Source: Cupriavidus sp.
Lineage (GTDB): Bacteria; Pseudomonadota; Gammaproteobacteria; Burkholderiales; Burkholderiaceae
DNA length: 64,000 nt
Assembly (NCBI GenBank): GCA_031180665.1
Contig: JAPSLP010000006.1
Coordinates: 124,001 to 188,000 of the forward strand
Reading direction: 5' to 3'
The notes below the pieces were generated by a model. That model saw only the letters and a program-made list of their open reading frames with translations, was not told where the DNA came from and did no database searches. The position numbers and the translations under genes were made by a program. Numbering within the stretch: position 1 is the first letter of the stretch; every line of letters begins with the position of its first letter. Positions 41,249 through 58,000 of the stretch are shown one piece after another.

Positions 41249-41713
41249 ATGATCCGAACCATATTGGTGGTCTGCATCGGCAATACCTGTCGCAGTCCGA
41301 TGGCGGAAGCCCTGCTGCGGCAGGCGCTGCCAACGTGCGAGGTGGCCTCCGCCGGACTGGCTCCGCCGGTCGGCGCGGCGGCGCATCCGTGTGCGATCGC
41401 GCTGATGGCCACCGAAGGGCTGGAACTGCGCGGGCATCGCGCCCGCCTCGTCGATGCGCAACTGGTGGACTGGGCCGATCTGGTGCTGGTGATGGACCTC
41501 GAGCAGCGCGACGAGGTCGAGCGCCGGTTTCCGGACGCACGCGGCCGCGTCTATCGCATCTGCGAGTTCATCGCGGCCGATGTGCCCGATCCCTTCGGCG
41601 GCTCGCACAGCATGTTCGCCATCGCACTCGGCTTGATCAAGACGGGCATCGAATCCTGGTCGGTACGCATACGAGCCATTGCGCCGGCCGAATGTCACGG
41701 GGAGGCATCATGA
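41249..41713 (+). CDS. wzb: Low-molecular-weight protein-tyrosine phosphatase
   Basis: The 154-residue enzyme has the P-loop VVCIGNTCRSPMAEALLR, with nucleophile Cys9 and Arg15, and the general acid in VPDPFGGS (DPF). It removes phosphate from the Tyr tail of the neighbouring BY-kinase and so controls polymer length and export. It starts 9 bp after the wza stop. Its own stop overlaps the wzc ATG by 4 bp. Confidence 0.92.
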   Translation: MIRTILVVCIGNTCRSPMAEALLRQALPTCEVASAGLAPPVGAAAHPCAIALMATEGLELRGHRARLVDAQLVDWADLVLVMDLEQRDEVERRFPDARGRVYRICEFIAADVPDPFGGSHSMFAIALGLIKTGIESWSVRIRAIAPAECHGEAS

Positions 41714-43953
41714 ACAGCAATAACATCCGGAGCACCCACTCCGAGCGCGCGGACGAGCGCGATGGCATGGTCGATCTGACATCCTGGTTCGACGTGCTGG
41801 CGCGATACCGGTGGACCTTTCTGACGGTGGCCGGCCTGGTCATCGCGCTCGGTGCGATCTATGCGCTGATCTCGCGGCCGGTCTATCGCGCCGACATCAT
41901 GGTGCAGGTGGAGGAGAGCACCAACACCACCGCGGCGACCAACCGCGTGGCCGCGCAGATCTCGCCGGTGATCGAGGTCAAGTCGGCGGCCTCCGCCGAG
42001 ATCGAACTGCTGCAGTCGCGCATGGTGGTCGGGCGCGCGGTCGACAACCTGATGCTGAACATCGAGGCGTCGCCACGCTACTTCCCGATCGTGGGCCGCG
42101 CGATCGCACAGCGCAACAGCGAGCTGTCGCAGCCGGGCCTGTTCGGCTGGGGCGGCTTCGCCTGGGGCAGCGAATCGATCGCCGTCAGCGAGCTGACGGT
42201 GCCGGCCGAGATGGACGAGCGCAAGATCACCGTGACCGCGCTGGGCAAGGGCGAGTACCGCGTCGCCTTCGCCAGCGATCCGGCCCGTGCCAACGGCAAG
42301 GTCGGCGAGCCGCTGACGGTCAAGACCGCCTACGGCCCGGTGAACCTGACGATCAGCAAGCTCGACGGGCGTCCCGGCACGCAGTTCGAACTGCGCCATC
42401 TGCCGCGCCTGGCAGCGATCGCCCGCCTGCAGCAGCAGCTTCATATCATGGAGCGCGGCAAGCAGAGCGGCGTGATCGGCGTCACGCTCGAAGGCGATTC
42501 GCCGCAGTTGACCGCGGCGATCCTCAACGAGATCGGCATGGAGTACGTCGAGCAGAACGTGCGCCGCAAGGCCGCGGAAGCGGAGAAGTCGCTCGAGTTC
42601 CTGCAGGGCCAGATGCCGCAGCTGCGCCAGCAGGTCGAGGCCGCCGAGACGCGCTATAACGCGATGCGCAACCAGCGCGGCACGGTGGACCTGAGCGAGG
42701 AATCGAAGCTGATCCTGGCGCAGTCGGTACAGATCCAGACCCGCTTGCAGGAACTGAAGCAGAAGCGGCAGGAACTGGCGATGCGCTTCGTCGGCGACCA
42801 CCCCAGCATCACCGCGATCGACAGGCAGATCGACAGCCTGACCGCGCAGCTGAACGGCGTCACCGGCCGCATCCAGCGCCTGCCCGATGTCGAGCAGAAC
42901 GTGCTGCGGCTGATGCGCGACGTCAAGGTCAACACCGAGCTCTATCAGGCCCTGCTCAACGACGTGCAGCAGCTCAAGCTGATGAAGGCGAGCAAGGTCG
43001 GCACCGCGCGCCTGGTCGATCCGGCCAACGTGCCGCTCAAGCCGGTGCGGCCGAATCGCCCGCTGATCGTCGCGGTGGCGGTGGGCCTGGGCGTGCTGGC
43101 CGGCCTGCTGATGGTGGTGGTGCGCCGCTCGCTCGATGGCGGGCTGACCGATGCCGACGAGATCGAGCAGCAAACCGGCCTGACCGTCTACGCCACGATC
43201 CCGCTGAGCCAGCAGCAGACCCGCAAGTTCGGTGGCGCCAAGCCGCTGCCCGGCCTGCTCGCGCTGCAGGAGCCCGAGGACCCGGCGATGGAGAGTCTGC
43301 GCAGCTTCCGCACCGCGCTGCAGTTCGCGCTGGTCGGCAGCCGCAATCGCATCGTGGTGATCACGGGCCCCGCCCCGGGCGTGGGCAAGTCCTTCATCGC
43401 CGCCAACTTCGCCGCGATCCTGGGCGCCGGCGGCAAGCGCGTCGCGCTCGTCGACGCCGACCTGCGCCGCGGCGGACTGAACCACCGCTTCGGCTCGCGC
43501 CGCTCGCCGGGCCTGAGCGACGTGCTGCTCGGCACGCCGCTGGACAAGGTGGTGCAGCGCCAGGTCGCGCCGGGGCTGGACTTCATCCCGACCGGAACGC
43601 AGGCGCCGCAGCCGGCCGACATGCTGAACAGCCCGGGCATGGAGGCGCTGATCGATGAGCTGAAGTCGCGCTACGACGTGGTGCTGATCGACTCGCCCCC
43701 GGTGCTGGCGGCTGCCGATGCCGGCATCCTGGCCAGCAGGGCGGGCGCGGTGTTCCTGGTGGCGCGCGCCGATGTCACCACCGCCAGCGAGCTGCAGGCC
43801 ACCGACAAGGCGATCCGCCATGCCGGAGGCGACGTCAAGGGCGTGCTGTTCAACGGCCTGCACGTCGAGGGGCGCTGGTACCGCTCGCACTACCACTTCG
43901 GCAAGTATCGCTATATGAACCAGTACGGCGCGATCAAGGCCAAGCGGGCCTGA
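41710..43953 (+). CDS. wzc: Tyrosine-protein kinase / chain-length regulator
   Basis: The 747-residue BY-kinase has an N-terminal Wzz domain between membrane helices (about 36-52 and 451-470) with coiled-coil stretches in the periplasm (about 285-400). The cytoplasmic kinase shows Walker A GPAPGVGKS (553-561), Walker A' VALVDADLR (578-586) and Walker B VVLIDSPP (657-664). The C-terminal Tyr cluster consists of Tyr724, 728, 733, 735 and 739, the autophosphorylation tail that Wzb dephosphorylates. It regulates chain length and export by cycling between phosphorylated and free forms. A GGGGAGG site lies just before its ATG. A hairpin terminator follows. Confidence 0.93.
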   Translation: MNSNNIRSTHSERADERDGMVDLTSWFDVLARYRWTFLTVAGLVIALGAIYALISRPVYRADIMVQVEESTNTTAATNRVAAQISPVIEVKSAASAEIELLQSRMVVGRAVDNLMLNIEASPRYFPIVGRAIAQRNSELSQPGLFGWGGFAWGSESIAVSELTVPAEMDERKITVTALGKGEYRVAFASDPARANGKVGEPLTVKTAYGPVNLTISKLDGRPGTQFELRHLPRLAAIARLQQQLHIMERGKQSGVIGVTLEGDSPQLTAAILNEIGMEYVEQNVRRKAAEAEKSLEFLQGQMPQLRQQVEAAETRYNAMRNQRGTVDLSEESKLILAQSVQIQTRLQELKQKRQELAMRFVGDHPSITAIDRQIDSLTAQLNGVTGRIQRLPDVEQNVLRLMRDVKVNTELYQALLNDVQQLKLMKASKVGTARLVDPANVPLKPVRPNRPLIVAVAVGLGVLAGLLMVVVRRSLDGGLTDADEIEQQTGLTVYATIPLSQQQTRKFGGAKPLPGLLALQEPEDPAMESLRSFRTALQFALVGSRNRIVVITGPAPGVGKSFIAANFAAILGAGGKRVALVDADLRRGGLNHRFGSRRSPGLSDVLLGTPLDKVVQRQVAPGLDFIPTGTQAPQPADMLNSPGMEALIDELKSRYDVVLIDSPPVLAAADAGILASRAGAVFLVARADVTTASELQATDKAIRHAGGDVKGVLFNGLHVEGRWYRSHYHFGKYRYMNQYGAIKAKRA

Positions 43954-44842: not shown

Positions 44843-46693
44843 TCAGCGTAGTGACTGGCGCAATGCCCGGGAGGCGGCCGGCGACGCTGCTGTTGGCAAC
44901 GCTGTCGGCCCACTTGCCGGTGCAACTTGGGATGCCGCTTCCACAGGCGAATCGAACGCCGCCAGATGTCGCATCAGGCAAGCCGCGAATTGCGCGCGGC
45001 TCTCGGTGAGAAACAGCGAATGGTCCAGCCGCGGCAGCACATGGACCCGAATGCCGCTCAGCGGGGCCAGTGCCTCCAGATGCCGGCCGAAGCGAGCCCG
45101 CGCTTCCAGCAGACCGATATCCCCCGCCCCATAGAGCAGATCGACGCGCACGCCGCGGCGTTGCAGGCTGTGCATCGCCTCGCGCGCGTAGGCATCGAGG
45201 TCGTCCGCGCCTCGCGTCGAGCCGGCACCGGCGCGGCTCGACCATAGCCGCCGCGCCAGCGCCGCGGCATGCGGCCACGGATCGATCTCGCCGCGCAGAA
45301 GCCGCAACCATTGCGCCGGGTTGCGCGCCGCGGCCAGATAGACCCGCGTCGATTGCAGCTGCGCATCGGCGTCGCCACCGCCCCGATCACTGTCGTCGTG
45401 CTGGCTGTCCCAGCGGAATTTGAGCAGATTGGCGAGCACCAGCCCATCGATCGGCGCCCCGGCCAGCGCGGCCTGCAGCGCGAGGAAGCCGCCCGAGCAA
45501 ACCCCGGCCACCACCACGCGCCGATAGCCGCGCGCCCTGAGCCACGCCGCGGCGGCCGCGACATCGCGCGACGGCTGCTCCCCATAGAGCGCCGCGATCC
45601 GCATCGTGCGCGCGGCCTGCGGGCTGTCGCCGAGCGCGGAGACGTCGAGCCGCAATGCCGCCACGCCGGCATGGGCGAGCTGGCGGGACAGCGTGACGAA
45701 CAGCCGGCAGTCGCCGACATGGTGGTTGCCGCCCGTGTTCGGAAACAGCACCGCGGTGGCCGTCGCGTCGCCACCATCGTCGCTCGTGCACAGCACGCCG
45801 AACTGACGGCCGCCATCGAGCCACACGGGCTGCTCCACCGTCCCCTGGACCCGCAGCACGGCATCGGCCGACACGGGGGACGACCGCTCGCCACGGCGCG
45901 CGACCGACGCAGTCGGTCCCAGCCATTGCGCGATCTGCTGCCACGCCTGCTCGGGCACGCTGCTGTTCTCGGCCGAGCGCATCATGGCGGGATACTCGTC
46001 GAAATCGAACCGCGTCACCTGCGCGCCCTGCGCCCGATAGCGACCGGCCAGCGCAGCGACCGGCGAACCGGCGCCGGGCCACGCATCGAGCAGCAGCATG
46101 CGCGGCGCGGGACAGGTGGCCCGGCGTTCGAGCCGCAGGCTCTCGAGCAAGGCCACGGCATCGGACGGCAGCCGATAGCCCAGCACCTCGCAGGCGCCGT
46201 CGCGCGGCGGCGCCACCGGAATATCGGGGATCGCGTTATTGCACCAGCTGCCCTGCAGTGCGCGCAGCTCGCGCAGATAGGTGCGGCCCGTGACAGGCGG
46301 GGCCAGCAGGATCAGTCCATCGGGACGCCGGCCCTCGTCGACCGCCATCGCCTCGGCGGCCAGCACGGCGAGCGTCGCGCCCAGCCGCAGACCGCACAGC
46401 ACCACGCGCTCGACCCCGGTATGCGCGCGCAGCGTCTGCGCGGCGCGCACGATGCTGTGCGTACAGGCGTTCAGACGATCGGGACCGTCCTCGGCCCCGG
46501 CGGAATCGCCGCAGCCGGGATAGTCGAAGCGCAGCACCGGCATGCCGGCGCTGGCGAGGTCCGCGGCCAGATGCCGCCACGCGCGATGCGACCACATCGC
46601 TTCATGGCCCCACGGCGCGCACAGCACCACGCCGGTTGCGCCAGGGCCGGCATGCAGCCAGCCGACGCAGTGGTCGAACGCCACTCGCTTCAT
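44843..46693 (-). CDS. Double alpha/beta-hydrolase, exosortase-associated hydrolase-like
   Basis: The 616-residue protein has two alpha/beta-hydrolase modules. Module 1 (about 1-265) has oxyanion-type CAPWGHEAMWSHRAWR, FDYPGCGDSAG and an elbow GLRLG (101-105) with Arg instead of the nucleophilic Ser. Module 2 (about 275-590) has PNTGGNHHVGDCRLFVTL, LDVSALGDS and elbow GVCSG (397-401) with Cys399 at the nucleophile position. From memory these match the two separate exosortase A-associated hydrolases (type 2 and type 1), here fused; no exosortase is seen. The ATG at 46693 has a GGGGGAAG site. The gene is the last of the minus-strand unit after the second BY-kinase-like gene. Confidence 0.75.
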   Translation of the reverse strand: MKRVAFDHCVGWLHAGPGATGVVLCAPWGHEAMWSHRAWRHLAADLASAGMPVLRFDYPGCGDSAGAEDGPDRLNACTHSIVRAAQTLRAHTGVERVVLCGLRLGATLAVLAAEAMAVDEGRRPDGLILLAPPVTGRTYLRELRALQGSWCNNAIPDIPVAPPRDGACEVLGYRLPSDAVALLESLRLERRATCPAPRMLLLDAWPGAGSPVAALAGRYRAQGAQVTRFDFDEYPAMMRSAENSSVPEQAWQQIAQWLGPTASVARRGERSSPVSADAVLRVQGTVEQPVWLDGGRQFGVLCTSDDGGDATATAVLFPNTGGNHHVGDCRLFVTLSRQLAHAGVAALRLDVSALGDSPQAARTMRIAALYGEQPSRDVAAAAAWLRARGYRRVVVAGVCSGGFLALQAALAGAPIDGLVLANLLKFRWDSQHDDSDRGGGDADAQLQSTRVYLAAARNPAQWLRLLRGEIDPWPHAAALARRLWSSRAGAGSTRGADDLDAYAREAMHSLQRRGVRVDLLYGAGDIGLLEARARFGRHLEALAPLSGIRVHVLPRLDHSLFLTESRAQFAACLMRHLAAFDSPVEAASQVAPASGPTALPTAASPAASRALRQSLR

Positions 46694-46814: not shown

Positions 46815-49190
46815 TCAAGCCTTGCCCGCGGCGGCTGCCACCGGACGTTCGAGGGCACGGGTCGCCGGTGTTGCGGGCGGCAGCGGCATGCCCAGATACG
46901 GATTGATGGTGGCGAACTCGGCGCGGTTGCTGCGACGCTGGGCCACGCCATTGATGATGCCGCCCGCGATGCGCGCATCGGCGCGCGAGAGCCGCTTGAG
47001 CGTGTCGTCGACCTGGCCGGGCAGCGTCACGTCGGCACGCATGACCAGCAGCGTCGAGCCGGCCAGGCTGGCGATCAGCATCGCGTCCGCGACCGACAGC
47101 ACCGGCGGCGTATCGACGATCACCAGGTCGAAACGCTCCTTGCACTGCTGCAGCGCGTCCTTCAACGTCGGCAGCATCAGCAGCTCCGACGGATTGACCG
47201 GCGTCGCACCGGCGCCAAGGATGCACAGGCCCGCGACCACGGTCGGCTGCACCGCCGCGCCGACCGGGATGCGGCCGGCCAGCACATCCGACAGTCCTGG
47301 TTCCGCGGACTGGCCGAACCACGTCGCGACCTTGCCGCGCCGCAAGTCGGCGTCGATCAGCAGCACGCGTTGTCCGGCCTCGGCGAACAGCACCGCGAGA
47401 TTGACTGCGGCGAAGGTCTTGCCAGCACCGGGCGCGGGACTGGTGATCGCCAGCACGCCATCGGGGGCGCTGCGCAGGCCGAAGTACAGGGAGGCCCGCA
47501 CGCTGCGCAACCCTTCGACCGCCAACGCATGGGGCGAGCGCCGCGCCAGCAGGAAGCGGTCGTGCAGCCCGTTACCGTTGCGCGCGCCGGCCTGCGGATC
47601 GCCCCCTTGCGCCTCGGCCAGCGCGGTGCCCGGGGCGGGCGCGGCCAGGCGTTGCCGCGCGGCGTCCGCCAGCCCCATCGCGGCCATCGCCCCGAAGCGC
47701 CGCTCGAGTTCGGCCTGGCGCTCCAGCTCCGCCTGCTCGTCGCTGAAGGCCACATCGCCCAGCATCGGCAGGCCCAGGCGCGCCTCCGCCTCGTTGGCAT
47801 CGGCGACCACCGGCTTGACACGCCGGCGCAGCATCACGCCACCGATCGCCAGCGCCAGCGCTGCCGCGCCGCCTGCCACCGCGGCCGGCCAGGGGCCGAC
47901 ACCGACGGGCACGGTCGAGGCCGCGGCCGCATCGACGATGCGCACCGCGCTGCTGCGGTCAGCCTGCACCAGCGACAGCTGTTCGATCTTGCGGCGCAGG
48001 GTCATGTACATGTCTTCGGCCACCTTGACGTCGCGCGTCAGCGCCACCGATTCGCGCTCGGACAGCGACAGGTTCTGCATGCGCTCGTCGAGTTCGCGCC
48101 GCTCGCGGATCAGCTGCTGGATCTGGCTGTCGACGGTCTTGACCTCGTTGGCATCGGTGGTGAAGCGCTGCAGCAGCTTGGTACGCTCGAGCCGCAGCGC
48201 GGCGATCTGGCGCTGATACTCCATGCTGCCTTGCAGATACGACTGCGCGTCCTGTGTCGGCTGGATCGAGCCGGAGCGGGAACGGTAGCGGGTCAGCGCC
48301 GCCTCCGCGCGTTCGAGCTCGGCCTGCACGCGCGGCAGCTCCGCCGCGAGGAAGGCCAGCGATTCGGCGGCGTCGCCGCGCCGCGCGCTGGTTTGTCCGC
48401 GGATATAGCCCTCGGCAATGCCATTGACGAGATCGGCGGCCTGCTTGCGATCGCCGCTCTGCCACGACAGCCGCACCGTGCCGCCGGGCATTTCGCTGAC
48501 CTTGAGTTGGCTGGCGATGGCATCGACGGTCGCGACCGGATCGCTGCGCATCAGCGTGAAGCGCGTGCCCGGCCGCGCGTCGATGCGCGAGATCAGGACC
48601 TCGACGCCATCGACCGCGGCCGACTCGCCGACGCGGCCTTCGAGCAGGGTACGGCTGCCATCGCTCAGGCGGAACGCGCCGCCGCTGAGCACCTCCAGCG
48701 TCAGCGGCTTGTTCAGCAGCCGCTCGGGCACCGCGAGCGTATCGAGCGCGATGCGCTCGCCGCCCCACGCGTAGCCCATGCCCGGCGGCCAGGGGCCGCG
48801 CACGTGCCCCGGTTCCGACAGGCGCGCGGCCAGCGCACCGACCAGCGGCGCGCGTACGGGCTCGGCAGTGATGCCCAGCCTGAGCTGCTCGATCACCGGC
48901 GCGGCCACCGCACGGCTCTTCAGAATGCTGGCGTCGAAGCCGGCCCCCGGCGTGGATGCCGCGCCCGGCGCGCCGCTGACGGCAACGTCAGGCTGGGCGA
49001 CCTGGATCAGCGCCGCGGCTTCGTAGCGCGGCGGCACCGTCAACGCCGCCAGCCCGGCCACGGCCGCGCCGGCCAGCGTCGCACCGACCAGCAGGCCGGC
49101 GCGATCCTGCAGCGCGCGCGCATAGCCGGCCGGCCGCTGCGGCACCACATTGGGAGCCGGCATTGTTCCGGCGAATGACAACCTGTCCAC
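46815..49190 (-). CDS. Second BY-kinase-like chain-length protein without Tyr tail
   Basis: The 791-residue protein has the Wzz/BY-kinase layout: first helix near 33-51, periplasmic coiled coil (about 265-410), second helix near 434-452. The cytoplasmic ATPase shows Walker A SPAPGAGKT (584-592), A' LIDADLRRG (611-619) and B VIVDTPPVL (690-698). The tail lacks the Tyr cluster of Wzc (only Tyr765), so it may not autophosphorylate there. The start is taken as GTG at 49190 because it follows a GGAG site at good distance; an earlier GTG at 49208 is possible. It is 27 bp after the Crp/Fnr gene on the same strand. Confidence 0.85.
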   Translation of the reverse strand: MDRLSFAGTMPAPNVVPQRPAGYARALQDRAGLLVGATLAGAAVAGLAALTVPPRYEAAALIQVAQPDVAVSGAPGAASTPGAGFDASILKSRAVAAPVIEQLRLGITAEPVRAPLVGALAARLSEPGHVRGPWPPGMGYAWGGERIALDTLAVPERLLNKPLTLEVLSGGAFRLSDGSRTLLEGRVGESAAVDGVEVLISRIDARPGTRFTLMRSDPVATVDAIASQLKVSEMPGGTVRLSWQSGDRKQAADLVNGIAEGYIRGQTSARRGDAAESLAFLAAELPRVQAELERAEAALTRYRSRSGSIQPTQDAQSYLQGSMEYQRQIAALRLERTKLLQRFTTDANEVKTVDSQIQQLIRERRELDERMQNLSLSERESVALTRDVKVAEDMYMTLRRKIEQLSLVQADRSSAVRIVDAAAASTVPVGVGPWPAAVAGGAAALALAIGGVMLRRRVKPVVADANEAEARLGLPMLGDVAFSDEQAELERQAELERRFGAMAAMGLADAARQRLAAPAPGTALAEAQGGDPQAGARNGNGLHDRFLLARRSPHALAVEGLRSVRASLYFGLRSAPDGVLAITSPAPGAGKTFAAVNLAVLFAEAGQRVLLIDADLRRGKVATWFGQSAEPGLSDVLAGRIPVGAAVQPTVVAGLCILGAGATPVNPSELLMLPTLKDALQQCKERFDLVIVDTPPVLSVADAMLIASLAGSTLLVMRADVTLPGQVDDTLKRLSRADARIAGGIINGVAQRRSNRAEFATINPYLGMPLPPATPATRALERPVAAAAGKA

Positions 49191-49217
49191 GGCAATCTCC
49201 TGACGCACTGGCGCAGT

Positions 49218-49940
49218 TCACGCTTCGGCGAGGGCCGGCAGCAGCCGGTCGAATTCGCGCTTGACGAGCTTGTAGCATTCGCACGAATGCGCTTCGAGCC
49301 CATGACGATCGAGCACCGTGATATGGCCGCGGCTGTGGTGGATCAGGCCGAGGTCCTCCAGCTTGCCGGCGGCTTCGGTCACGCCTTCGCGGCGCACGCC
49401 GAGCATATTGGCGATGACCTGCTGCGTGATCACCAGCTCGTTGGTCGCCATGCGATCGAGGGCGAGCAGCAGCCAGCGGCACAGCTGCTTGTTCAGCGAA
49501 TGATGGCGATTGCAGACCGCGGTCTGCGCGATCTGCGTGAGCACCGCCTGCACGTACAGCAGCGTGGCGCGCTGGATCGTCGGCGAGCGCATGAACTCCT
49601 GGCGCAGCGTGCCCGCCGAGAGCCGATAGGCGAAGCCGGGCGTGCGGACCTCGACGCGGCACGGCATGGTGTCGCCACCGGTCAGCACAGGGATGCCGAC
49701 CAGACCCTCGTTGCCGATCGCGGCGATCTCGGCGGTCGCGCCGTTCTCCAGCAGCGACAGCATCGACACGATGGCCGTGGTGGGAAAGTACACATGGTGG
49801 ATGCGTTGACCCGAGTCGGTGAGCAGTTGCCCCGCCCGCATCCGTACCAGCTCCAGGTGCCCCGACAGCGTTTCCCATTCCTTGCGCGGCAACGAGGCCA
49901 GCAGGTGGTTGACGTGCAAATCCGAACGTTGACCGATCAT
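49218..49940 (-). CDS. Crp/Fnr-family transcriptional regulator
   Basis: The 240-residue protein has an N-terminal cyclic-nucleotide-binding beta-roll (ELVRMRAGQLLTDSGQRIHH, VGIPVLTGGD) and a C-terminal Crp-type winged HTH (LVITQQVIANMLGVRREGVT). The nucleotide pocket lacks the clear Glu/Arg/Thr set of cAMP-binding Crp, and there is no Fnr-like N-terminal Cys cluster. The ligand is open; related regulators in Burkholderiales and Xanthomonas respond to c-di-GMP. A strong AGGGAGA site precedes the ATG. Its place at the head of the BY-kinase/hydrolase unit suggests control of polysaccharide or envelope genes. Confidence 0.86.
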   Translation of the reverse strand: MIGQRSDLHVNHLLASLPRKEWETLSGHLELVRMRAGQLLTDSGQRIHHVYFPTTAIVSMLSLLENGATAEIAAIGNEGLVGIPVLTGGDTMPCRVEVRTPGFAYRLSAGTLRQEFMRSPTIQRATLLYVQAVLTQIAQTAVCNRHHSLNKQLCRWLLLALDRMATNELVITQQVIANMLGVRREGVTEAAGKLEDLGLIHHSRGHITVLDRHGLEAHSCECYKLVKREFDRLLPALAEA

Positions 49941-50246
49941 TTCTGTTCTCCCTTCTTGTCCTTTTTGTTGCTGTTTTCCCCCGCCTCGCACCCGATGCCC
50001 GTCGACGACGTCCGTCACAACCACGAGACAGCGACGCTGACCGTGACGGCGACGCGGTGCGGCTTGCGTGCTTCCATTAAGTTCCATCTGTGGGACGCCC
50101 AACAGTAGCCGCACGGCTGAAACCTGCTCATCCTTCGGTAGGTGGGAATGGGGAGGGAGCCGCGTTACAGCAGTGCAACCATTTGGCGCGACGCATCGGC
50201 AATGCGTCAGCCGGTTGCGATGGGCATTGGCCTGCGGGTCGATGTG
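49941..50246. other. Promoter region of the crp-like gene with long inverted repeat
   Basis: The 306 bp between the GH2 stop and the crp-like start contain an inverted repeat CCGTCAC (50012-50018) / GTGACGG (50043-50049) and a pyrimidine tract next to the ATG. No gene is recognised. The GH2 operon must end here, but no clear terminator is visible. Confidence 0.4.
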
Positions 50247-52835
50247 CTACGCGCTGTAGCCCAGTGGTCCAGGCGCGTTCAGCGCGCGAATCTCCCCCAT
50301 CGGGATGGCGGCGCTCGCCAGACGGTTTAGGCCTTCTTCGCTGCGCCCCTCGCCGCGCCCTTCGCCACCACGCGCACCAACGTCGGCACGCAGCAGCACA
50401 CGGTGGCTTGCGCCCGGTGCGAGATGGAAGTAATCGCTTGCCGGTTGCAGGTTTGCATCGTCGATCTGCACCCAGCGTGCGAAACGGCGCGCCGACACCG
50501 TCAGCCACCACTGGCCTTCGATGTGCTGGAGCTGCGCATGCAGCTCCGGGGGCGCGAGCGCCGCGGCGCTGCGATCCGGTAGATAGAACGCCTCGCTGAC
50601 GACCGTGCCGCCCCCATCGAGCCACGCGGCGTGCACCACGTCATGCAGGCGTGGGCCGAAGCGGTAGGCATAGGCAAAGTCGAAGAACTCGTCGGCCAGT
50701 TCGGCGCCGCCGATGCATCGGACCGAGCGCGGCGCCAGCGTGAATTCGCGCGACACGTCGAGCAGCGGCATCAGTCCGTCGCGCAGACATCGCAGGCGCA
50801 GGCGCATCGGCTGCGCGACAGCGGTCTCGTTGATCAGGTGCACATGCACGCCGTTCAGGCCTTCGTCGGTGAGCAGCACCTGCAGCGGTTGCCACACCTG
50901 GCGCAGCGCATGCCATGCGGACTTGGGCCGGCGCAGCGCATCGACGATGCCCCAACCGGCGCCCGGTACCAGGTCCTGCCATTGCCACACCAGCCCTCCG
51001 GCGCAGCACGAGCCGGCGCGGCGCCATTCGGCAAAGACCTCGCTCATCAGCTCGGCGACCACCGCGCGCGCGCAGTGCAGATAGCGCGCCGGGTCCTCCC
51101 TGCGCAGGCGCGCGGGATCGACTGCATAGAGCGATTGGAGGTAGAAGTCGCGCACGTCTTCGAAGTCCCAGCATGCGCCGGCATCGCGCGGCACCGTGCG
51201 CTTCCAGCGTGGGTCGTGCACCGGCGCGACGCCCGCCATCGCCTCACGCAGCGTGCGCTCGCATGGCACGTTGGCGAAGGCCAGGCATTCGGCGGCAAAG
51301 CGCACGCGCGCACGCCGCGCATCGTCGAGCGGCCGCTGGTAGGCGCCGACGCCGTAGTAGTGGCTGACGCCGCGATCGGGCTGGAACGGCCACGCGCCGC
51401 CGCTCGGCGAATTGCGCACGTAAGGCGCGGAAACGCCGTGCGCGGCGATGCAGTCGGGAATCACCGTGTCGAACAGCGGCTGGCGCCACGCCTGGCGGGC
51501 AGCGCCCAGCATCGCCGCCTGCTGCTCCGCTTCGCTGCCGCCGCACAGCACGGCCACGCTCGGATGGTGGGCATGGGTGGCGAGCCATTGGCGCACCTCG
51601 CGGCGTGCGTCGTCGAGCAGCGCGGCGCCGGAATCGGTCCCCGGCTCGACGGAATAGTCGAAGTTGGCGAACAGGAAGTCCTGCCAGACCAGCAGGCCCA
51701 TCGCATCGCAGGCCGCGTGAAACGCCTCGCCCTGGTAGCACGTCACGCCGCTGATGCGGATCATGTTCATGTTGGCCTCGCGCGCCTGCGCGAGCCATGC
51801 CGCGCAGGCCTGCGCATCGGGCGCGTGGCCGTGCAGGTCCAGGCTGGCCACGCAAGCGCCGCGGCAGAAGACCGGTACGCCATTGACGCGCACGACGAAC
51901 CCGCCATCGCTCTGGTCCAGATCGATGTGCCGGAAGCCGACCCGCGCGCAGGGCAGCGTCTGGGCGCCGGCGCGCAGCGTGACGTCGTAGAGCGCCGGCT
52001 CGCCGTGCGTGTGCGGCCACCATTTGCGCACGCGCGGCACCCTGACGCTGCCATGCCATACCGGGCCGTGCTCGCGGTCTTGCCGGCATGCCAACGCGGC
52101 CTCGTGGCCGTCGACCGCCACCGTCAACGCGCCTTCCACGAGGGGAGCGACGCCGCGCACCTGCACCGACACGACGCCGTCGTCGCCGTCCAGGCGTGCC
52201 ATCGTTTCGCAGCGCGCCGCGTCGAGCGGACGCGCGGGCGCCGGCAACAGGTCGATCTCGCGCCATGGTCCCACGGCGTGCACCGGCGGACACCAGCCCG
52301 GCATATGGCCGAGCAGCGTGGTGCGCACGTGCCGCAGCGATGGCGGCGACACCAGCCGCGGCTTCCAGCGCACCGGGCCGCGCCGGCCACGCAGCGCGCG
52401 CTCGAGCGAGCGGAAGCACAGCGACAGCGTGTGGGTGCCAGACAGCGTCAGCGCGACCTCGTGTTCCGCGAACATCGAGCGGCTCTCGAGCACGCGCGTG
52501 TGGTCGAGCCACACCTCGCAGATCGTGGCCAGTCCGCGCAGCCGCAGGCAATGTGCGCCCTCGCCGGAGATCGGCACGCGATACCAGTAATCGCGCCGAT
52601 GCAGCGGCGGCGGCGCCTCGGCGCACCAGCGGCCGGCCGCCTGCAGCGCCTGCGCGACCGTGCCCGGAACCGGTGCCGGCAACCAGTCGCCCGCGGCCGG
52701 CAAGTCGAGCGGCGTGGCAATGGCATCGGCCTCGGTCTCCAGCATGCGCCACGGACCGGTCAGCGGCTGGCGCGCCAGCGGCCGGCCCAACGGCATGGCC
52801 GGCGCCATGCGCTGGCACACATCGGGCGCGGTCAT
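50247..52835 (-). CDS. GH2 glycoside hydrolase, beta-mannosidase-like
   Basis: The 862-residue protein has the GH2 order: jelly-roll domain (about 1-200), Ig-like domain, TIM barrel (about 320-600) and C-terminal beta domains. The barrel motifs are present: MNMIRISGVTCYQGEAFHAACD, LVWQDFLFANFDY and AVLCGGSEAEQQ with the probable acid/base Glu. RFAAECLAFANVP holds the nucleophile Glu (compare RFxSEYGxQ in beta-mannosidases). It has no signal peptide, so it is cytosolic. It closes the carrier-protein operon, 16 bp after DUF1839. Known family members cleave terminal beta-mannose; here trimming of a lipid-linked or intracellular saccharide is an inference. The start at 52835 is probable but not certain. 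Confidence 0.8.
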   Translation of the reverse strand: MTAPDVCQRMAPAMPLGRPLARQPLTGPWRMLETEADAIATPLDLPAAGDWLPAPVPGTVAQALQAAGRWCAEAPPPLHRRDYWYRVPISGEGAHCLRLRGLATICEVWLDHTRVLESRSMFAEHEVALTLSGTHTLSLCFRSLERALRGRRGPVRWKPRLVSPPSLRHVRTTLLGHMPGWCPPVHAVGPWREIDLLPAPARPLDAARCETMARLDGDDGVVSVQVRGVAPLVEGALTVAVDGHEAALACRQDREHGPVWHGSVRVPRVRKWWPHTHGEPALYDVTLRAGAQTLPCARVGFRHIDLDQSDGGFVVRVNGVPVFCRGACVASLDLHGHAPDAQACAAWLAQAREANMNMIRISGVTCYQGEAFHAACDAMGLLVWQDFLFANFDYSVEPGTDSGAALLDDARREVRQWLATHAHHPSVAVLCGGSEAEQQAAMLGAARQAWRQPLFDTVIPDCIAAHGVSAPYVRNSPSGGAWPFQPDRGVSHYYGVGAYQRPLDDARRARVRFAAECLAFANVPCERTLREAMAGVAPVHDPRWKRTVPRDAGACWDFEDVRDFYLQSLYAVDPARLRREDPARYLHCARAVVAELMSEVFAEWRRAGSCCAGGLVWQWQDLVPGAGWGIVDALRRPKSAWHALRQVWQPLQVLLTDEGLNGVHVHLINETAVAQPMRLRLRCLRDGLMPLLDVSREFTLAPRSVRCIGGAELADEFFDFAYAYRFGPRLHDVVHAAWLDGGGTVVSEAFYLPDRSAAALAPPELHAQLQHIEGQWWLTVSARRFARWVQIDDANLQPASDYFHLAPGASHRVLLRADVGARGGEGRGEGRSEEGLNRLASAAIPMGEIRALNAPGPLGYSA

Positions 52836-52851
52836 CGCCGCGCCCGCGGCG

Positions 52852-53844
52852 TCAGGGCTCCCCCTCGCCCACATAGGCGGCAAGCGCCGGCACCGCGGCC
52901 TCGTAGCAGGCTTCCATCTGATCGAGGCAATCCTGGCAGGCGTCGGGCCGGCGTCCGAGGATCGAGCGGATCAGCCGGAACTGCATCACCATCGCCTCCG
53001 ACGCCAGCCGCTGGCAGGCGGTGGCGATCGCCGCCGGCAATGGCTGTCCCTGCAGGCTTAGCCAGCGCAGGTACTTGCCGAGCAGCTCGAAGTTGGCGCC
53101 CAGTTGGCGCAGCACGTTGAAGGCGTACGGATGGAAAGCCGGTTCGCCGCGCACCGCCAGCTCGTCCAGATGTTGCGGAAACACCTGCCGGTACGCGGCG
53201 ATCGGATTCTGCCGCGGGCGCCGCGCCAGATGCCGCCGCAACAGCGCCAGCGAGGCGCGCAGCAGCATCGGCCCGGACAGCGGCGGAAAGCGCCGCCGCA
53301 CGACCTCGGCGTACGGAAACAGCAGATTGGGATCGGCCTGCAGGTCCGGCAGCAGCCGGAACAGGCCGGCATAGTCGTCGCCGCGCGCGACGTGGTAGCC
53401 GTCGTTGTGGTAGTAGCCGACCCCGCGTGCCTCGGGCATCAGCACGTCGATGCCGATGGTGGTCTTGGTGTGCTGGCGCCGGTACGACGTGGCGCGATTG
53501 TCGGGCAGGTAGTAGCCGTCGACCTCGAGCAGCACCACGTGGCCGCGCGCGGTCTGCGTCGCGACATGGCGCTCCATCGCGTCGTAGAGCGAGAGCTCGT
53601 GCACCACCACGCCATAGAGCCGTTCCAGATCGTCGACCGGGTATTTGAAGAAAGTGAACTGGTCGCCGTCGAAGTCCTGCGCGACGGTAAACGGCAGCGC
53701 CGCCAGCGGATCGAGCTGCCAGCCGTGCAGCAGCTCGATCCACAGGTCGACATAGCAGTTGGTCTGTGGCCAGACCGCCTGCTCGGTATGCAGGACATGC
53801 GAGGCATGCACGGCGTGCGCCAGCCGCCCGGTGCCGTCATACAT
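52852..53844 (-). CDS. DUF1839 protein of the amino acid:carrier-protein operon
   Basis: The 330-residue protein matches DUF1839, a family of unknown function that I recall next to amino acid:[carrier protein] ligases. The N-terminal half has conserved blocks NCYVDLWIELLHGWQLDP, DGDQFTFFKYPVDDLERLYG and VVLLEVDGYYLPDN, the last with an HTKTTIG segment nearby. The family has been suggested to act as a transferase of the carrier-bound group, but no activity is proven. It has no signal peptide or membrane segment. Its ATG overlaps the ligase stop by 8 bp. It is a good candidate for the enzyme that takes the aminoacyl group off the carrier. Confidence 0.78.
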   Translation of the reverse strand: MYDGTGRLAHAVHASHVLHTEQAVWPQTNCYVDLWIELLHGWQLDPLAALPFTVAQDFDGDQFTFFKYPVDDLERLYGVVVHELSLYDAMERHVATQTARGHVVLLEVDGYYLPDNRATSYRRQHTKTTIGIDVLMPEARGVGYYHNDGYHVARGDDYAGLFRLLPDLQADPNLLFPYAEVVRRRFPPLSGPMLLRASLALLRRHLARRPRQNPIAAYRQVFPQHLDELAVRGEPAFHPYAFNVLRQLGANFELLGKYLRWLSLQGQPLPAAIATACQRLASEAMVMQFRLIRSILGRRPDACQDCLDQMEACYEAAVPALAAYVGEGEP

Positions 53845-54850
53845 GGCGCAGTCCCAGCAGCTCGCGCACCTGGCCCGGCCAGCGCGCCAGCGCGAAACCA
53901 TGGTGGCGCAGCAGCGCCAGGATCAGCCGGTCGATGCCGAAGCCGACGCAACCGGTGTGGGCACGCGCGCCGTCGGCGGTGCGCAGCGGCCAGACTTCGG
54001 CGAAGTGGTCCTTGTGGTAGTTGAAGCTCATGCAGGCGGTGGGCGGGGCGTCGTCGTGGATCGGAATCAGCAGTTCGAACTTCAGTTTCTGCTCGCGCTG
54101 GCCATCGGCGACGATCTTGCCGCCGCGGCCGAAGAACGGGTCGTTTGCCAGATCGAGCTGCCAGGGCAGGTCCAGCTGCTGCGCCAGCGCACTGCCCCGC
54201 TCGATCCACTGCGTGCGGAAGGCGACGATCTGCTCGGCGGTGCCCAGCCGCACGTACTCGCGCATGCGGAACAGCTGCATGCGGGCCGGGTCGACCGATG
54301 GCTCATGGCGGAAGCAGTACGAGAGCACGTCGACCACGCGCCCCTGCGGCGGCAGCGGTCCGCGTGCGGCCATCACCGGATAGATCGGATAGCAGGCGGC
54401 GGGCGTCAGCACCACGCGCGTGGGCCGCTGCTGGTCCGCCCATTCCTCGCCGGCATCGAGGCGCGCCAGCAGGCGATGATGATCGCGATCGCTGCCGCAG
54501 AAGCTGTGCACGGTGCCGGCCAGCTGCGGAAAGCTCTTCAGGTATTCGCTGGCTTCGAAGTCCTGCCGCGCCATCGCCGGCGGAAAGCGGATCACCTCGG
54601 CCTGCTGGTCGGCGCCGAGCGCACCGATGGCGGCGTTCAGGCCGTCGGCAATGGCCTCGAAGTCGGCGCTGCGTCCATACAGACCGTCGACGCCGGTCGG
54701 AATCAGCAAGCCGGCCTCGATCAACGCCTGGCGAAAGCGCCGCTGCGCCGCCAGCGCGGCCTGCTCCGGTGGGCGGACCAGGCGCTGCGGCGGCGCCGCG
54801 GTGTCGGCAGGCTCGACGGCGCCACTGTGGTGGCCGCTCTGGTAGTCCAT
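53837..54850 (-). CDS. Amino acid:[carrier protein] ligase (seryl-tRNA synthetase-like)
   Basis: The 337-residue protein is a class II aminoacyl-tRNA synthetase core without the tRNA-binding arm of SerRS. Motif 2 is CFRHEPS (Arg181-Glu183) and motif 3 is GFGIDRL (303-309). Cys153 (AACYPIYP), Glu183 and Cys273 (TACMSFNYHKDH) match the Cys-Glu-Cys zinc site of the characterised Bradyrhizobium enzymes, which attach glycine or alanine to a carrier protein rather than to tRNA (Mocibob, Weygand-Durasevic and co-workers). The carrier is encoded two genes upstream. A strong GAGGAG site precedes the ATG at 54850. Confidence 0.9.
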   Translation of the reverse strand: MDYQSGHHSGAVEPADTAAPPQRLVRPPEQAALAAQRRFRQALIEAGLLIPTGVDGLYGRSADFEAIADGLNAAIGALGADQQAEVIRFPPAMARQDFEASEYLKSFPQLAGTVHSFCGSDRDHHRLLARLDAGEEWADQQRPTRVVLTPAACYPIYPVMAARGPLPPQGRVVDVLSYCFRHEPSVDPARMQLFRMREYVRLGTAEQIVAFRTQWIERGSALAQQLDLPWQLDLANDPFFGRGGKIVADGQREQKLKFELLIPIHDDAPPTACMSFNYHKDHFAEVWPLRTADGARAHTGCVGFGIDRLILALLRHHGFALARWPGQVRELLGLRHV

Positions 54851-54861
54851 GCCGATTCTCC

Positions 54862-56097
54862 TCAATGCGAACGTTCCGCCAGCAGCAGGCTGGCGGTATT
54901 GGTCAGGATGCGGTCGTTGCTGATCATCAGCGGCGCGGACCACAGATCGCGCAGATGACGGCCGACGCTGAACGGCGTGCCCTGCTTGTAGCCGGCCATG
55001 CCGCAGATCAGCAGCGCGGTCTGTACGGCTTCGAGGGCCAGCGTCGACACGCTGGTTTTCAGGCCGTTCATTTCCGCGGCGAAGGCAAAATCCGCGGAGA
55101 CGGAACGGCCGGGCGTGTGGTCGCGGTAGTGCGCGAGCGCCATCTGCACGCGCGCCTGCATCGTGTCGATCGTCGCCGCCGCCTCCGCCAGCCGCGTGGC
55201 CGAGGGCGGCAGCGTGCCGGGCCGCGAGCGCGCCTGGCCCTGGAAGAAGGCCTTTGCCCGCTGCACCGCGTCGGCGGCGATGCCGGTCCACAGCGCGCTC
55301 CACAGGATGTGCGACACCGGCGTCATGGTCGCGTCGGCGATCTCGCCGAACGGCACCGGCACGATCTGCTCGCAGGCCCCGCGCGCCTCCAGCCGGAAGC
55401 CGTTGCTGCAGGTGCCGCGCATGCCCAGCGTGTCCCAGCCGCTCGTGCACTGCAGCGTGCAATCGCTGCCCGGCACGCAGACCAGCACCTGGTCGGACTG
55501 CGGCGCCTCCGCATGACGGCGCGCGGTGGCGAGAATCACGTCGGCCTGCGCGCCGTACGAAATGGTCGGCGCCATCTTGACCAGATGAAAGCGCCCGCCG
55601 TCCGTGGCCACCGCGCAGCCGCTGGTGCGCAGCGCGCCGCCGATCGACTGTTCCGACGTCGCCGAAGCCAGCAGCAACTGCTCTCCGGCGATGCGTGCGA
55701 GCAGGCGCTCGTGCCAGATGCTGCCGCGCGCATGCGCGACCAGGCAGGCAACCTGGATCTGGTGCATCGCGTAGATCATGCCGGTGGCCGCGCACGCGCC
55801 GGCGAGCGCGCGACAGATCGCCGCGACGGTATCGAGCGATGCGCCGCCGCCGCCGAGTTCGGCCGGCACCATCGCACCGAGCAGGCCGCGCTCGCGCAAC
55901 GCGGCGAAGGCCGCTTCGGGGAACGCCGCCTCGCGATCGACACGATCGGCCTGCGCCGCGGCGAGCGGCACCACCTCGCGGGCGGCGGCCAGCGCGTCCT
56001 GCGGTGGATCGCCTTGGACCGGCGGATCGCCCTGCCCCGGCTCGGCACCGGCATCGTGCGGGCAGGGCTGCACCGCATGCGCCGCGAACGCGTTCAT
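54862..56097 (-). CDS. Acyl-CoA dehydrogenase-like flavoprotein of the carrier-protein operon
   Basis: The 411-residue protein has the acyl-CoA dehydrogenase fold. It shows the N-terminal helical domain (FPEAAFAALRERGLLGAMVP, ELGGGGASLDTV), the FAD-binding middle domain (LASATSEQSIGGALRTSG) and the C-terminal helical domain (ALLICGMAGYKQGTPFSVGR, HLRDLWSAPLMISNDRI). The catalytic Glu at the usual place is not obvious. Homologues in non-ribosomal pathways oxidise carrier-bound aminoacyl groups (as in prolyl to pyrrolyl), so the substrate may be the aminoacyl-carrier rather than a CoA ester. Its ATG overlaps the carrier-protein stop by 4 bp and the ligase follows after 11 bp in the reverse direction of reading. 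Confidence 0.82.
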   Translation of the reverse strand: MNAFAAHAVQPCPHDAGAEPGQGDPPVQGDPPQDALAAAREVVPLAAAQADRVDREAAFPEAAFAALRERGLLGAMVPAELGGGGASLDTVAAICRALAGACAATGMIYAMHQIQVACLVAHARGSIWHERLLARIAGEQLLLASATSEQSIGGALRTSGCAVATDGGRFHLVKMAPTISYGAQADVILATARRHAEAPQSDQVLVCVPGSDCTLQCTSGWDTLGMRGTCSNGFRLEARGACEQIVPVPFGEIADATMTPVSHILWSALWTGIAADAVQRAKAFFQGQARSRPGTLPPSATRLAEAAATIDTMQARVQMALAHYRDHTPGRSVSADFAFAAEMNGLKTSVSTLALEAVQTALLICGMAGYKQGTPFSVGRHLRDLWSAPLMISNDRILTNTASLLLAERSH

Positions 56098-56345
56098 GCC
56101 GCCTCCTGCTGCTGGCGCAGATACACGATCGCGTCTTCCAGCGACTGGATGCTGCGAAACAGCTGGCGCGTCAGCATCCGGTCGGGAATTTCGATATCGA
56201 AGGCATTCTCGATGGCCAGCATCACGTGCACCGTGGCGAGCGACGACAGACCGGCTTCGTAGAGGTCGGCGTGATCGTCCAGCGTGTCCGCTGGCACCTC
56301 GAGCCGCCCCACCTGCGCCAGGATCGTGCGTATGGTGGCTTTCAT
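56094..56345 (-). CDS. Carrier protein (acyl/aminoacyl carrier)
   Basis: The 83-residue protein is a four-helix carrier protein. The phosphopantetheine site is YEAGLSSLATVHVMLAIE, with Ser35 before Leu as in DSL motifs, but Ser34 replaces the Asp. This form is known for carriers served by amino acid:[carrier protein] ligases. A GGAGGAG site lies 4 bp before the ATG. It is first in the five-gene operon carrier-dehydrogenase-ligase-DUF1839-GH2. It needs a phosphopantetheinyl transferase, which is not in the window. The 107 bp before it hold a hairpin (gtgcg / cgcac). Confidence 0.88.
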   Translation of the reverse strand: MKATIRTILAQVGRLEVPADTLDDHADLYEAGLSSLATVHVMLAIENAFDIEIPDRMLTRQLFRSIQSLEDAIVYLRQQQEAA

Positions 56346-56452: not shown

Positions 56453-57865
56453 TCAGAATGCGCTCTTGCCGGTCCAGCCATGCAGCGCGGTGCGCGCGAT
56501 GATCCGCAGGTCCAGCTGGAAGGACCAGTTGCGGATGTAGTAGATATCGAACTCGATGCGCGCACGCATCTTCTCGACCGTGTCGGTCTGACCGCGCAGG
56601 CCGTTGATCTGCGCCCAGCCGGTGATGCCGGGCTTGACGCGATGGCGCAGCATGTAGCGGTCGATCAGCTCCTTGTACATCTCGTTGTGTTCGAGCGCAT
56701 GCGGGCGAGGGCCGACCACCGACATCTCGCCGCGCAGCACGTTGAAGAACTGCGGCAGTTCGTCCAGGCTGGTACGGCGCAGGAAGGCGCCGATGCGCGT
56801 CACACGCGGGTCGTTGCGCACCGCCTGCGTGACGCCACGGTCCTGGTGGACCACCATGGTGCGGAACTTGAAGACATCGAAGGGCTTGCCGTCGATGCCC
56901 AGGCGCTTCTGCCGGAACAGCACCGGGCCCGGCGAGGACAGCTTGACGCCGATCGCGATGGCGACCAGCAGCGGCGACATGCCCAGTAGCGCCACGGCCG
57001 CGAAGACGCGATCGAAGCTGGCCTTCAGCAGGCCCGTGATGCGCGAATCGGGCGGGCTGTTCAGGTCGATCACCGGCAAGCCGAGGAATTCGCTGAAGCG
57101 GTGGCCCAGCAGTTCGACCGACATGATGTCGGGCACCCAGCGGATGTCGACCAGGTCGTTGCGGAACTGGTAGACCACGTCGCACAGATCGCGGCAGGCC
57201 GCCATCGGCAGCGTCAGCCAGATCTCGCGCACGTCCTGACTGCGCACGAAGCGCGTGACCTCGCTCATCTCGCGCAGGATCGGCACGCCGGTGGGCAGCG
57301 CGTCGTCGTCGTGGTCGCAGTAGACGCCGACCACGTGATAGCCGGCCTCGCGGATGCGTTGCACGCGCCGGTACATCTCATTGCCGAGCGGCCCGTAGCC
57401 GAAGATCAGCACGCGCTTGGCGTTGATGCCCTGCTGCCGTACGTTGCCCAGCAGCTGGTACAGCACCAGCCGCGATCCGATCAGCGCCAGCGAGACGGTG
57501 CCGAACCAGGTGGTCGACCACAGCCGCGATACTGCGCCGATCTGATGCATCAGGTAGGCCAGTACCAGGCCGCTGACTGCCACCAGGCTCCATGCCGCCA
57601 GCGTGCGCAGGCCGAGGGCGGCGCGGCTGCGGCCGCGCCACGATTCATACAGTCCGCAGGCGGGAAACACGATCAGCGTCGCGACCGCACAGAACGCGGT
57701 CAGGAAGCCATGTATCGGCGCCGCCGATGCCAGACCGCCCTCGGGAAACCAGAATTCGCCGACCAGGATGCCGCAGATGCCCACCGTCAATGCATCCGAG
57801 ACCCGATACAGCAGTTGCAGCGCTGTCTGCCGCTCGACGACCGCTTGCGCGCTTGCCGTTGCCAT
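56453..57865 (-). CDS. Undecaprenyl-phosphate sugar-1-phosphate transferase, WcaJ-like
   Basis: The 470-residue protein starts the repeat unit by moving a sugar-1-phosphate (usually glucose-1-P from UDP-glucose) to undecaprenyl phosphate. It has four N-terminal helices, a CoA-binding-like domain (RVLIFGYGPLGNEMYRRV, GYHVVGVYCDHD) and the C-terminal bacterial sugar transferase domain with membrane re-entrant helix. The motifs are VLFRQKRLGIDGKPFDVFKF, RRTSLDELPQF and VVGPRPHALEHN. The start MATASAQAVVERQ at 57865 has a GGGGAGAGG site. It lies in front of the carrier-protein operon on the same strand. Confidence 0.92.
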   Translation of the reverse strand: MATASAQAVVERQTALQLLYRVSDALTVGICGILVGEFWFPEGGLASAAPIHGFLTAFCAVATLIVFPACGLYESWRGRSRAALGLRTLAAWSLVAVSGLVLAYLMHQIGAVSRLWSTTWFGTVSLALIGSRLVLYQLLGNVRQQGINAKRVLIFGYGPLGNEMYRRVQRIREAGYHVVGVYCDHDDDALPTGVPILREMSEVTRFVRSQDVREIWLTLPMAACRDLCDVVYQFRNDLVDIRWVPDIMSVELLGHRFSEFLGLPVIDLNSPPDSRITGLLKASFDRVFAAVALLGMSPLLVAIAIGVKLSSPGPVLFRQKRLGIDGKPFDVFKFRTMVVHQDRGVTQAVRNDPRVTRIGAFLRRTSLDELPQFFNVLRGEMSVVGPRPHALEHNEMYKELIDRYMLRHRVKPGITGWAQINGLRGQTDTVEKMRARIEFDIYYIRNWSFQLDLRIIARTALHGWTGKSAF

Positions 57866-58000
57866 GACCCTCTCCCCTTGCTGCCCTGTCGATGCCGTGT
57901 GTCGGCATATCGCGAACATCGTCGCGCCGGGGTCGGCGTGGGGTCTGTTGGGTCCCCCACACAGGTGGGGGCTGCGGCGGGTAGCCGTGGTCTGTTCCGG

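Follow-up and report, generated by a model that had tools for sequence, protein, structure and literature searches.

What becomes of an amino acid that a class II synthetase relative loads onto a dedicated carrier protein, when the genes for both lie beside those for polysaccharide assembly? The question is raised by a stretch of 64,000 nucleotides from Cupriavidus sp. (assembly GCA_031180665.1, contig JAPSLP010000006.1, positions 124,001 to 188,000), the whole of which is called the window here. It carries an operon of five genes (window positions 50247-56345, minus strand) for a carrier protein, a flavoprotein with acyl-CoA dehydrogenase fold, an amino acid:[carrier protein] ligase, a protein of the DUF1839 family and a glycosidase of family GH2. 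An earlier interpretation of the same DNA, made without database searches and referred to below as the sequence-only reading, had proposed that the aminoacyl group is oxidised or is transferred to a sugar, decorating a polymer. We propose that the five genes and a sixth, coding for a fused double alpha/beta-hydrolase, form a cassette that joins the carrier-loaded small amino acid to an amino sugar via DUF1839 and thereby tags the precursor of a surface glycan; to this proposal we give an even chance. The cassette itself is real and conserved, and all of its functional steps are what we infer.

Conservation of the operon

Content, order and strand of the five genes are as the sequence-only reading had them. 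It had counted overlaps of 4, 11, 8 and 16 bp at the junctions; going from the carrier gene to the GH2 gene, the values of 4 and 8 bp are indeed overlaps, and those of 11 and 16 bp are gaps. The GH2 gene starts at the ATG at 52835, an alternative in-frame ATG at 52874 being possible. Promoter- and terminator-like sites showed no excess over shuffled sequence.

The gene set recurs as a unit. Among 104 distinct loci with DUF1839, the ligase lies in the same stretch in 89; all five genes are present in 87 of these, and because the exact order of carrier protein, flavoprotein, ligase, DUF1839 and GH2 (ACP-ACAD-LIG-DUF1839-GH2) is kept in 85 of the 89, the gene order is beyond chance. Nine loci sharing the last 300 residues with a named locus were left out of these counts, the named loci are the best 80 matches of one scan and all belong to the Burkholderiaceae, and species counts are phylogenetically non-independent throughout. 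Across 398 sampled genomes of the phylum, with at most three to five candidates scored per genome, DUF1839 was found in 16 and the ligase in 44, 28 of the latter being close relatives (E ≤1.4e-85). All 16 genomes with DUF1839 have a close ligase, and 12 close ligases occur without DUF1839. In these 12 loci the flavoprotein gene always adjoins the ligase gene, a carrier gene was called in eight, and no GH2 was found, because of which carrier protein, ligase and flavoprotein would appear to form a core, to which DUF1839 and GH2 add an output module. Near their ligase genes, two loci that lack DUF1839 (L170, L171) have between them genes for an alpha/beta-hydrolase (Abhydrolase_3), an AMP-binding enzyme and a short-chain dehydrogenase, and L171 also has a Wzz-type gene.

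The sequence-only reading had stopped at five genes and overlooked the double hydrolase gene. A full-length hydrolase, defined by E ≤5.9e-45 and a match from query residue ≤20 to ≥561 (next match E 4e-25), is present in 16 of 16 DUF1839 genomes of the sample as against one of the 382 others (Fisher 1e-27, uncorrected for kinship), and in none of the 12 genomes that have a close ligase but no DUF1839. In 14 of these 16 DUF1839 genomes the two genes share a contig and are no more than 21 kb apart. In the single genome with a full-length hydrolase and no DUF1839 (G376), the gene may be left over from a cassette since lost. Among 36 selected genomes, the hydrolase occurs in 19 of 22 with the ligase and two of 14 without it (Fisher 3e-5), where G029 and G455 are probably one genome. 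By sequence comparison the protein is a fused relative of the exosortase-A hydrolases and not an equivalog, since it scores 98.8 of the 168 and 79.0 of the 203 bits that are the cut-offs for hydrolases 1 and 2 (TIGR03100/TIGR03101). Azospirillum brasilense Sp7 carries all six genes. On plasmids the hydrolase gene directly follows the GH2 gene in Azospirillum and Mycetohabitans, and in Phyllobacterium the two are neighbours on opposite strands; the hydrolase gene was not seen near GH2 in the incomplete gene tables of the Caballeronia SL2Y3 and Rhizobium leguminosarum pRL7 plasmids. In locus L066 the hydrolase is fused to a Wzx-type domain, and L068 has a gene of equal size that was grouped into the same cluster.

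Loss in relatives

Cupriavidus gilardii USM5, a near relative, has kept the carrier and DUF1839 genes; its flavoprotein and hydrolase genes are gone, and so, but for short remnants, are those for ligase and GH2 (L082, 9400-11800). In locus L064 the DUF1839 cysteine, the carrier serine, the ligase and the GH2 enzyme were lost together. A search for the ligase in 18 genomes, from which L155 was left out, found none in 14; the other four were two picked positive controls, L128 with the ligase in place and L148 with the ligase on another contig, beside a hydrolase. Remnants of ligase, flavoprotein and GH2 genes in several of the gaps point to genuine decay, and assembly artefacts were rejected as the explanation of the losses; draft contigs may add error, and a run of N occurs in L060 only among loci L046-L175.

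Both the state of USM5 and the 14 genomes lacking a ligase would fit an operon that is a decaying relic in this lineage and inactive now. We regard this as quite improbable for the Cupriavidus operon, in which all six genes of the window are open and the catalytic residues intact, and single-copy DUF1839 genes accompanied by a ligase have a median ratio of nonsynonymous to synonymous substitution rates (dN/dS) of 0.13.

The DUF1839 protein

The DUF1839 protein of the window matches PF08893 with 457 bits, and its closest named relatives among the matches listed are from Cupriavidus cauae (99%) and C. gilardii (96%). Its predicted structural model matches, as a whole-length fold, CcbD (the top match), an AziU2/U3 chain and CtaG. 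CcbD transfers an aminoacyl group to an amino sugar in a carrier-dependent manner and reportedly borrows acceptor-binding residues from the neighbouring subunit (PMC12945683). In 2023 the DUF1839 family was assigned to the papain-like superfamily; its site was described as C(T/S)H, with residues that have switched places, and a role in glycans was suggested (PMC10318531). The transfer of the aminoacyl group to a sugar by DUF1839, already part of the sequence-only reading, thus gains support from the fold, as far as a predicted model can lend it.

Alternatively, DUF1839 could hydrolyse the aminoacyl group or shift it between carriers and not pass it to a sugar, which is improbable given that the top fold match acts on an amino sugar (PMC12945683), that GH2 follows DUF1839 in 85 of 89 loci and that the operon holds a single carrier gene.

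All 89 DUF1839 loci with a ligase contain a copy with Cys30, His125, Thr/Ser128 and His146. Two copies are present in 22 loci, found in Cupriavidus, two records named Ralstonia and one unclassified member of the Burkholderiaceae; 21 of them have exactly one copy with the full set of residues, and L087 has two. In 19 of the 22, the ligase-adjacent copy has Arg or Gln instead of Cys30. These Cys-less copies are under purifying selection (median pairwise dN/dS 0.17; 105 pairs from 15 named copies), the corresponding medians being 0.24 for the Cys-bearing copies of two-copy loci and, as given above, 0.13 for single copies with a ligase; these values come from named loci only, with 40 of 52 single copies used. 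The Cys-less copies may stem from few evolutionary events. Because CcbD reportedly draws on residues of the adjacent subunit to bind its acceptor, it is plausible by analogy that a Cys-less and an intact copy form a heterodimer. Two Cupriavidus loci (L047, L048) are arranged differently, with carrier, flavoprotein, ligase and GH2 genes beyond Wzc, one DUF1839 gene by the Crp gene and a second copy reversed; the full-length hydrolase is absent from both genomes.

Ligase, carrier protein and flavoprotein

Ligase and carrier protein are, to judge from their sequences, members of biochemically known families. They score above the cut-offs of the curated NCBIfam models PRK07080 (518 bits, cut-off 357) and PRK07081 (128 bits, cut-off 72), respectively, and they match solved ligases of the Bradyrhizobium Bll0957 type (E 4e-94) and the solved carrier protein Atu2571 (E 3e-23). 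The zinc set named by the sequence-only reading is conserved: Cys153 and Glu183 are present in 112 of 112 aligned ligases and Cys273 in 107, the five exceptions being four distant ligases and one gap, and all three align with identical residues of the solved ligase 4h2w, which we take to bind zinc there. The same holds for the carrier serine, Ser35, found in 102 of 103 rows. In the alignments given here and below, eight or nine of the rows for each gene repeat a genome already present.

According to a 2022 review, ligases of this family use Ala, Gly or Ser, and their role was called unknown (PMC9437257). A proposal of 2010, according to the note in proof of PMC2922099, had the ligase feeding a non-ribosomal peptide. 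Such an origin was rejected for the present operon and is scarcely credible here, since no condensation or adenylation domain was seen among the 21 window proteins scanned and the constant partners of the ligase are DUF1839 and GH2. Bradyrhizobium bll0957 (ligase) and the adjoining acd gene (bll0958) each show a fold change of 3.0 in a phaR mutant (PMC10888616), and the table concerned gives a hint that ligase and flavoprotein are co-regulated. In loci L066, L068 and L072, which are Rhizobium-type as judged by the best hits of L068, the operon adjoins genes resembling those for elongation factor P, a class II lysyl-type synthetase and a radical SAM protein; this elongation factor P modification set would be a second system built on a synthetase relative, perhaps beside the operon by coincidence.

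The flavoprotein has the acyl-CoA dehydrogenase fold. The position of the catalytic Glu of short- and medium-chain enzymes, as set by alignment and a motif, is occupied by Ile392 in 109 of 110 rows. Some members of the acyl-CoA dehydrogenase family place the catalytic residue elsewhere, and another such position shows, as judged by eye, His263, which is invariant (110 of 110 rows). In fold comparison, dehydrogenases, the carrier-bound cysteine dehydrogenase ColB1, the nitrososynthase KijD3 and DszC tie, and the protein is filed only as an acyl-CoA-dehydrogenase-fold flavoprotein. Because it adjoins the ligase even in loci without DUF1839, it may oxidise the amino acid while this is bound to the carrier.

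The GH2 enzyme matches PF22666 and PF17753 above their cut-offs, and its nearest solved structures are beta-mannosidases. The catalytic residues E435 and E516 are each present in 95 of 101 rows; the remaining six belong to the degenerate GH2 proteins of L065, L156 and L159, each of which is listed twice.

Genetic setting

The features of the window are collected in Table 1.

Table 1 Genes of the proposed cassette and its neighbours, with coordinates in the window
Feature	Coordinates	Strand	Remarks
Aminoacyl carrier protein gene	56094..56345	(-)	83 aa; phosphopantetheine Ser35; PRK07081
Acyl-CoA-dehydrogenase-fold flavoprotein gene	54862..56097	(-)	411 aa; residue other than Glu at the catalytic position of short/medium-chain enzymes
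Amino acid:[carrier protein] ligase gene	53837..54850	(-)	337 aa; class II synthetase relative; PRK07080; zinc ligands C153, E183, C273
DUF1839 (PF08893) gene	52852..53844	(-)	330 aa; predicted CcbD-like carrier-protein-dependent aminoacyltransferase; C30, H125, T128, H146
GH2 beta-mannosidase-like gene	50247..52835	(-)	862 aa; catalytic E435 and E516; no signal peptide seen
Fused double alpha/beta-hydrolase gene	44843..46693	(-)	resembles exosortase-A hydrolases 2 and 1; proposed sixth component
WcaJ-type undecaprenyl-phosphate glucose phosphotransferase gene	56453..57919	(-)	TIGR03023 above cut-off; 107 bp upstream of carrier gene
Crp-type regulator gene	49218..50036	(-)	adjoins operon in loci from Cupriavidus and in most of the named Paraburkholderia loci
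Wzc-type tyrosine kinase / chain-length protein gene	46815..49208	(-)	second of two in the window

The window contains two different Wzc-type genes, the one in Table 1 and another at 41710-43953, on opposite strands and with the double hydrolase gene between them. The placement in a polysaccharide locus, which the sequence-only reading had emphasised, applies to the Burkholderiaceae, where a WcaJ, Wza or Wzc match lies in the flank of 63 of 68 named ligase-bearing loci, and fails for three of five plasmid loci viewed, out of 59 plasmid records with incomplete gene tables. In other families, six of 11 loci show a glycosyltransferase, Wzx or Wzz among the genes annotated or clustered. Of the plasmid loci, that of Azospirillum has GT9 and sulfotransferase genes upstream, and that of Mycetohabitans an acyltransferase gene and a lipid A aminoarabinosyltransferase-like gene.

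By simple hydropathy, none of the six proteins has an N-terminal hydrophobic segment or signal peptide, and therefore the chemistry is likely cytoplasmic, taking place on a precursor or small glycoside and not on an exported polymer. Decoration of a finished polymer, as first suggested, is for this reason doubtful, and some plasmid cassettes lack polysaccharide genes.

The same absence of signal peptides, like the plasmid cassettes without polysaccharide genes in the listed flank, would suit a rather unlikely alternative, in which the product is a small soluble aminoacyl-glycoside (a signal, or siderophore- or antibiotic-like) made by the cassette alone from common sugar metabolites, the polysaccharide neighbours in Burkholderiaceae being incidental. 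The nearest folds of DUF1839 also all come from small-molecule pathways, to which we presume AziU2/U3 and CtaG to belong. For CcbD this is taken from PMC12945683. Such a product is harder to reconcile with the adjoining WcaJ, Wza or Wzc genes in 63 of 68 loci and with the fusion of the hydrolase to a Wzx-type domain in L066, and no exporter gene recurs in most of 33 loci clustered, an ABC-type cluster being present in five.

A YdjC-type deacetylase (window 35998-36759) could free an amine on the same polymer. As a member of the cassette or its source of free amine it was rejected: it lies at most 20 kb from DUF1839 on the same contig in nine of 30 genomes of the same genus, distances being taken partly by eye, and in none of 13 genomes of other genera.

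Proposed pathway

In the tagging of a surface glycan precursor that we propose, the ligase would load a small amino acid onto the dedicated carrier protein, and the flavoprotein could act at this stage. The carrier thioester would then acylate Cys30 of DUF1839 in a ping-pong mechanism, and the amine of a sugar would attack the acyl-Cys30 to give an amide, both steps by analogy with CcbD. The acceptor would be an amino sugar, probably on the cytoplasmic precursor of a surface glycan, and GH2 and the double hydrolase may act in the cytoplasm, either trimming the sugar or proof-reading the thioester. A wider version is put forward with more hesitation, as less likely than not: DUF1839 would represent a CcbD-type branch in envelope glycan assembly, in which an amino acid is activated by a synthetase relative, oxidised on the carrier and joined to an amino sugar by an amide bond. 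The double hydrolase would be a near-constant partner, and in most two-copy loci the ligase-linked Cys-less copy would serve as the non-catalytic subunit of a heterodimer with the intact one.

Several observations weigh against the proposed pathway. DUF1839 has no detectable sequence similarity to CcbD, AziU2/U3 or CtaG (E up to 10), a common fold is no proof of activity, and CtaG presumably belongs to the closthioamide pathway and not to sugars. The published order of the C(T/S)H residues (PMC10318531) is unlike the Cys-His-Glu of CcbD. DUF1839 with intact residues persists in seven of 15 loci without a ligase, and three of the 22 selected genomes that have a ligase (G011, G026, G032) lack the hydrolase. 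A scan of 21 window proteins revealed neither an aminotransferase nor any other product of a dedicated amino-sugar gene, and the YdjC deacetylase shows no linkage to the cassette in the other genera that were searched. Glycosyltransferase, Wzx and Wzz were not seen in five of 11 loci of other families, where genes are partly annotated. On Phyllobacterium p_3 and Caballeronia SL2Y3 p1 the five genes occur with no genes for glycan assembly in the flank as listed. R. leguminosarum pRL7, again with no such genes listed, has a damaged set in which the flavoprotein gene is split and GH2 is present as a short fragment.

Related systems and significance

The sequence-only reading had called the pathway undescribed, which does not hold: cluster and function were proposed in 2010 (PMC2922099), and DUF1839 was classed in 2023 (PMC10318531). 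The 2010 note in proof describes, for the Agrobacterium Atu2571-Atu2574 type of cluster, a carrier, a redox enzyme, a ligase, a conserved open reading frame (Atu2574), a glycosidase and liposaccharide neighbours, all as in the present operon, and predicts that the Atu2574-type protein ligates the amino acid to the amino group of a surface sugar, that is, by an amide bond (PMC2922099). The section containing that proposal gives no fold or catalytic model for the reading frame and no hydrolase partner; the present analysis adds both, together with evidence from residues, copy number and joint loss. In the literature searched, the word DUF1839 occurs only in PMC10318531, whose main text is without CcbD or LmbD. 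Papers mentioning six Agrobacterium and Bradyrhizobium locus tags hold, beyond PMC2922099, mere gene listings, and titles and abstracts on aminoacyl carrier proteins and exopolysaccharide yielded nothing on this system. The general purpose was thus predicted in 2010, and what we infer to be new is the CcbD-type mechanism of DUF1839, the hydrolase partner and the patterns of residues and loss.

Unlike the lincosamide condensation enzymes CcbD and LmbD, to which DUF1839 has no sequence similarity, the cassette employs a class II synthetase relative and not an adenylation domain, and its setting is often a surface-glycan locus. Complexes of CcbD with a carrier protein are available as structures 9dkr and 9dks. 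The Bradyrhizobium Bll0957 ligase (E 1e-91) has the same zinc residues in the alignment, whereas the 12 close ligases that occur with the flavoprotein, some of which are taken to be Bradyrhizobium-like, lack DUF1839, GH2 and the full-length hydrolase. In Vibrio AlmEFG (lipid A glycylation) and the Gram-positive DltABCD, a carrier-bound small amino acid is likewise moved to an envelope component, but the ligases are of another fold, the acyltransferases are membrane or lipid enzymes, and the bond is an ester and not an amide. BtrH of the butirosin pathway, which is papain-like and moves an acyl group from a carrier protein onto an aminoglycoside (PMC10318531), resembles the proposed step, but it is not among the structures listed as matches of DUF1839.

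Because a mechanism is now predicted for DUF1839 and a sixth linked gene has been found, the idea of 2010 becomes testable: DUF1839 is a concrete candidate for a CcbD-like acceptor enzyme, the set of six proteins is defined, and natural loss variants are at hand. If the proposal is true, a synthetase relative would feed the aminoacylation of sugars in Cupriavidus, Paraburkholderia, Rhizobium, Azospirillum and others, and the cassette may provide a new tool for the synthesis of aminoacyl amino sugars.

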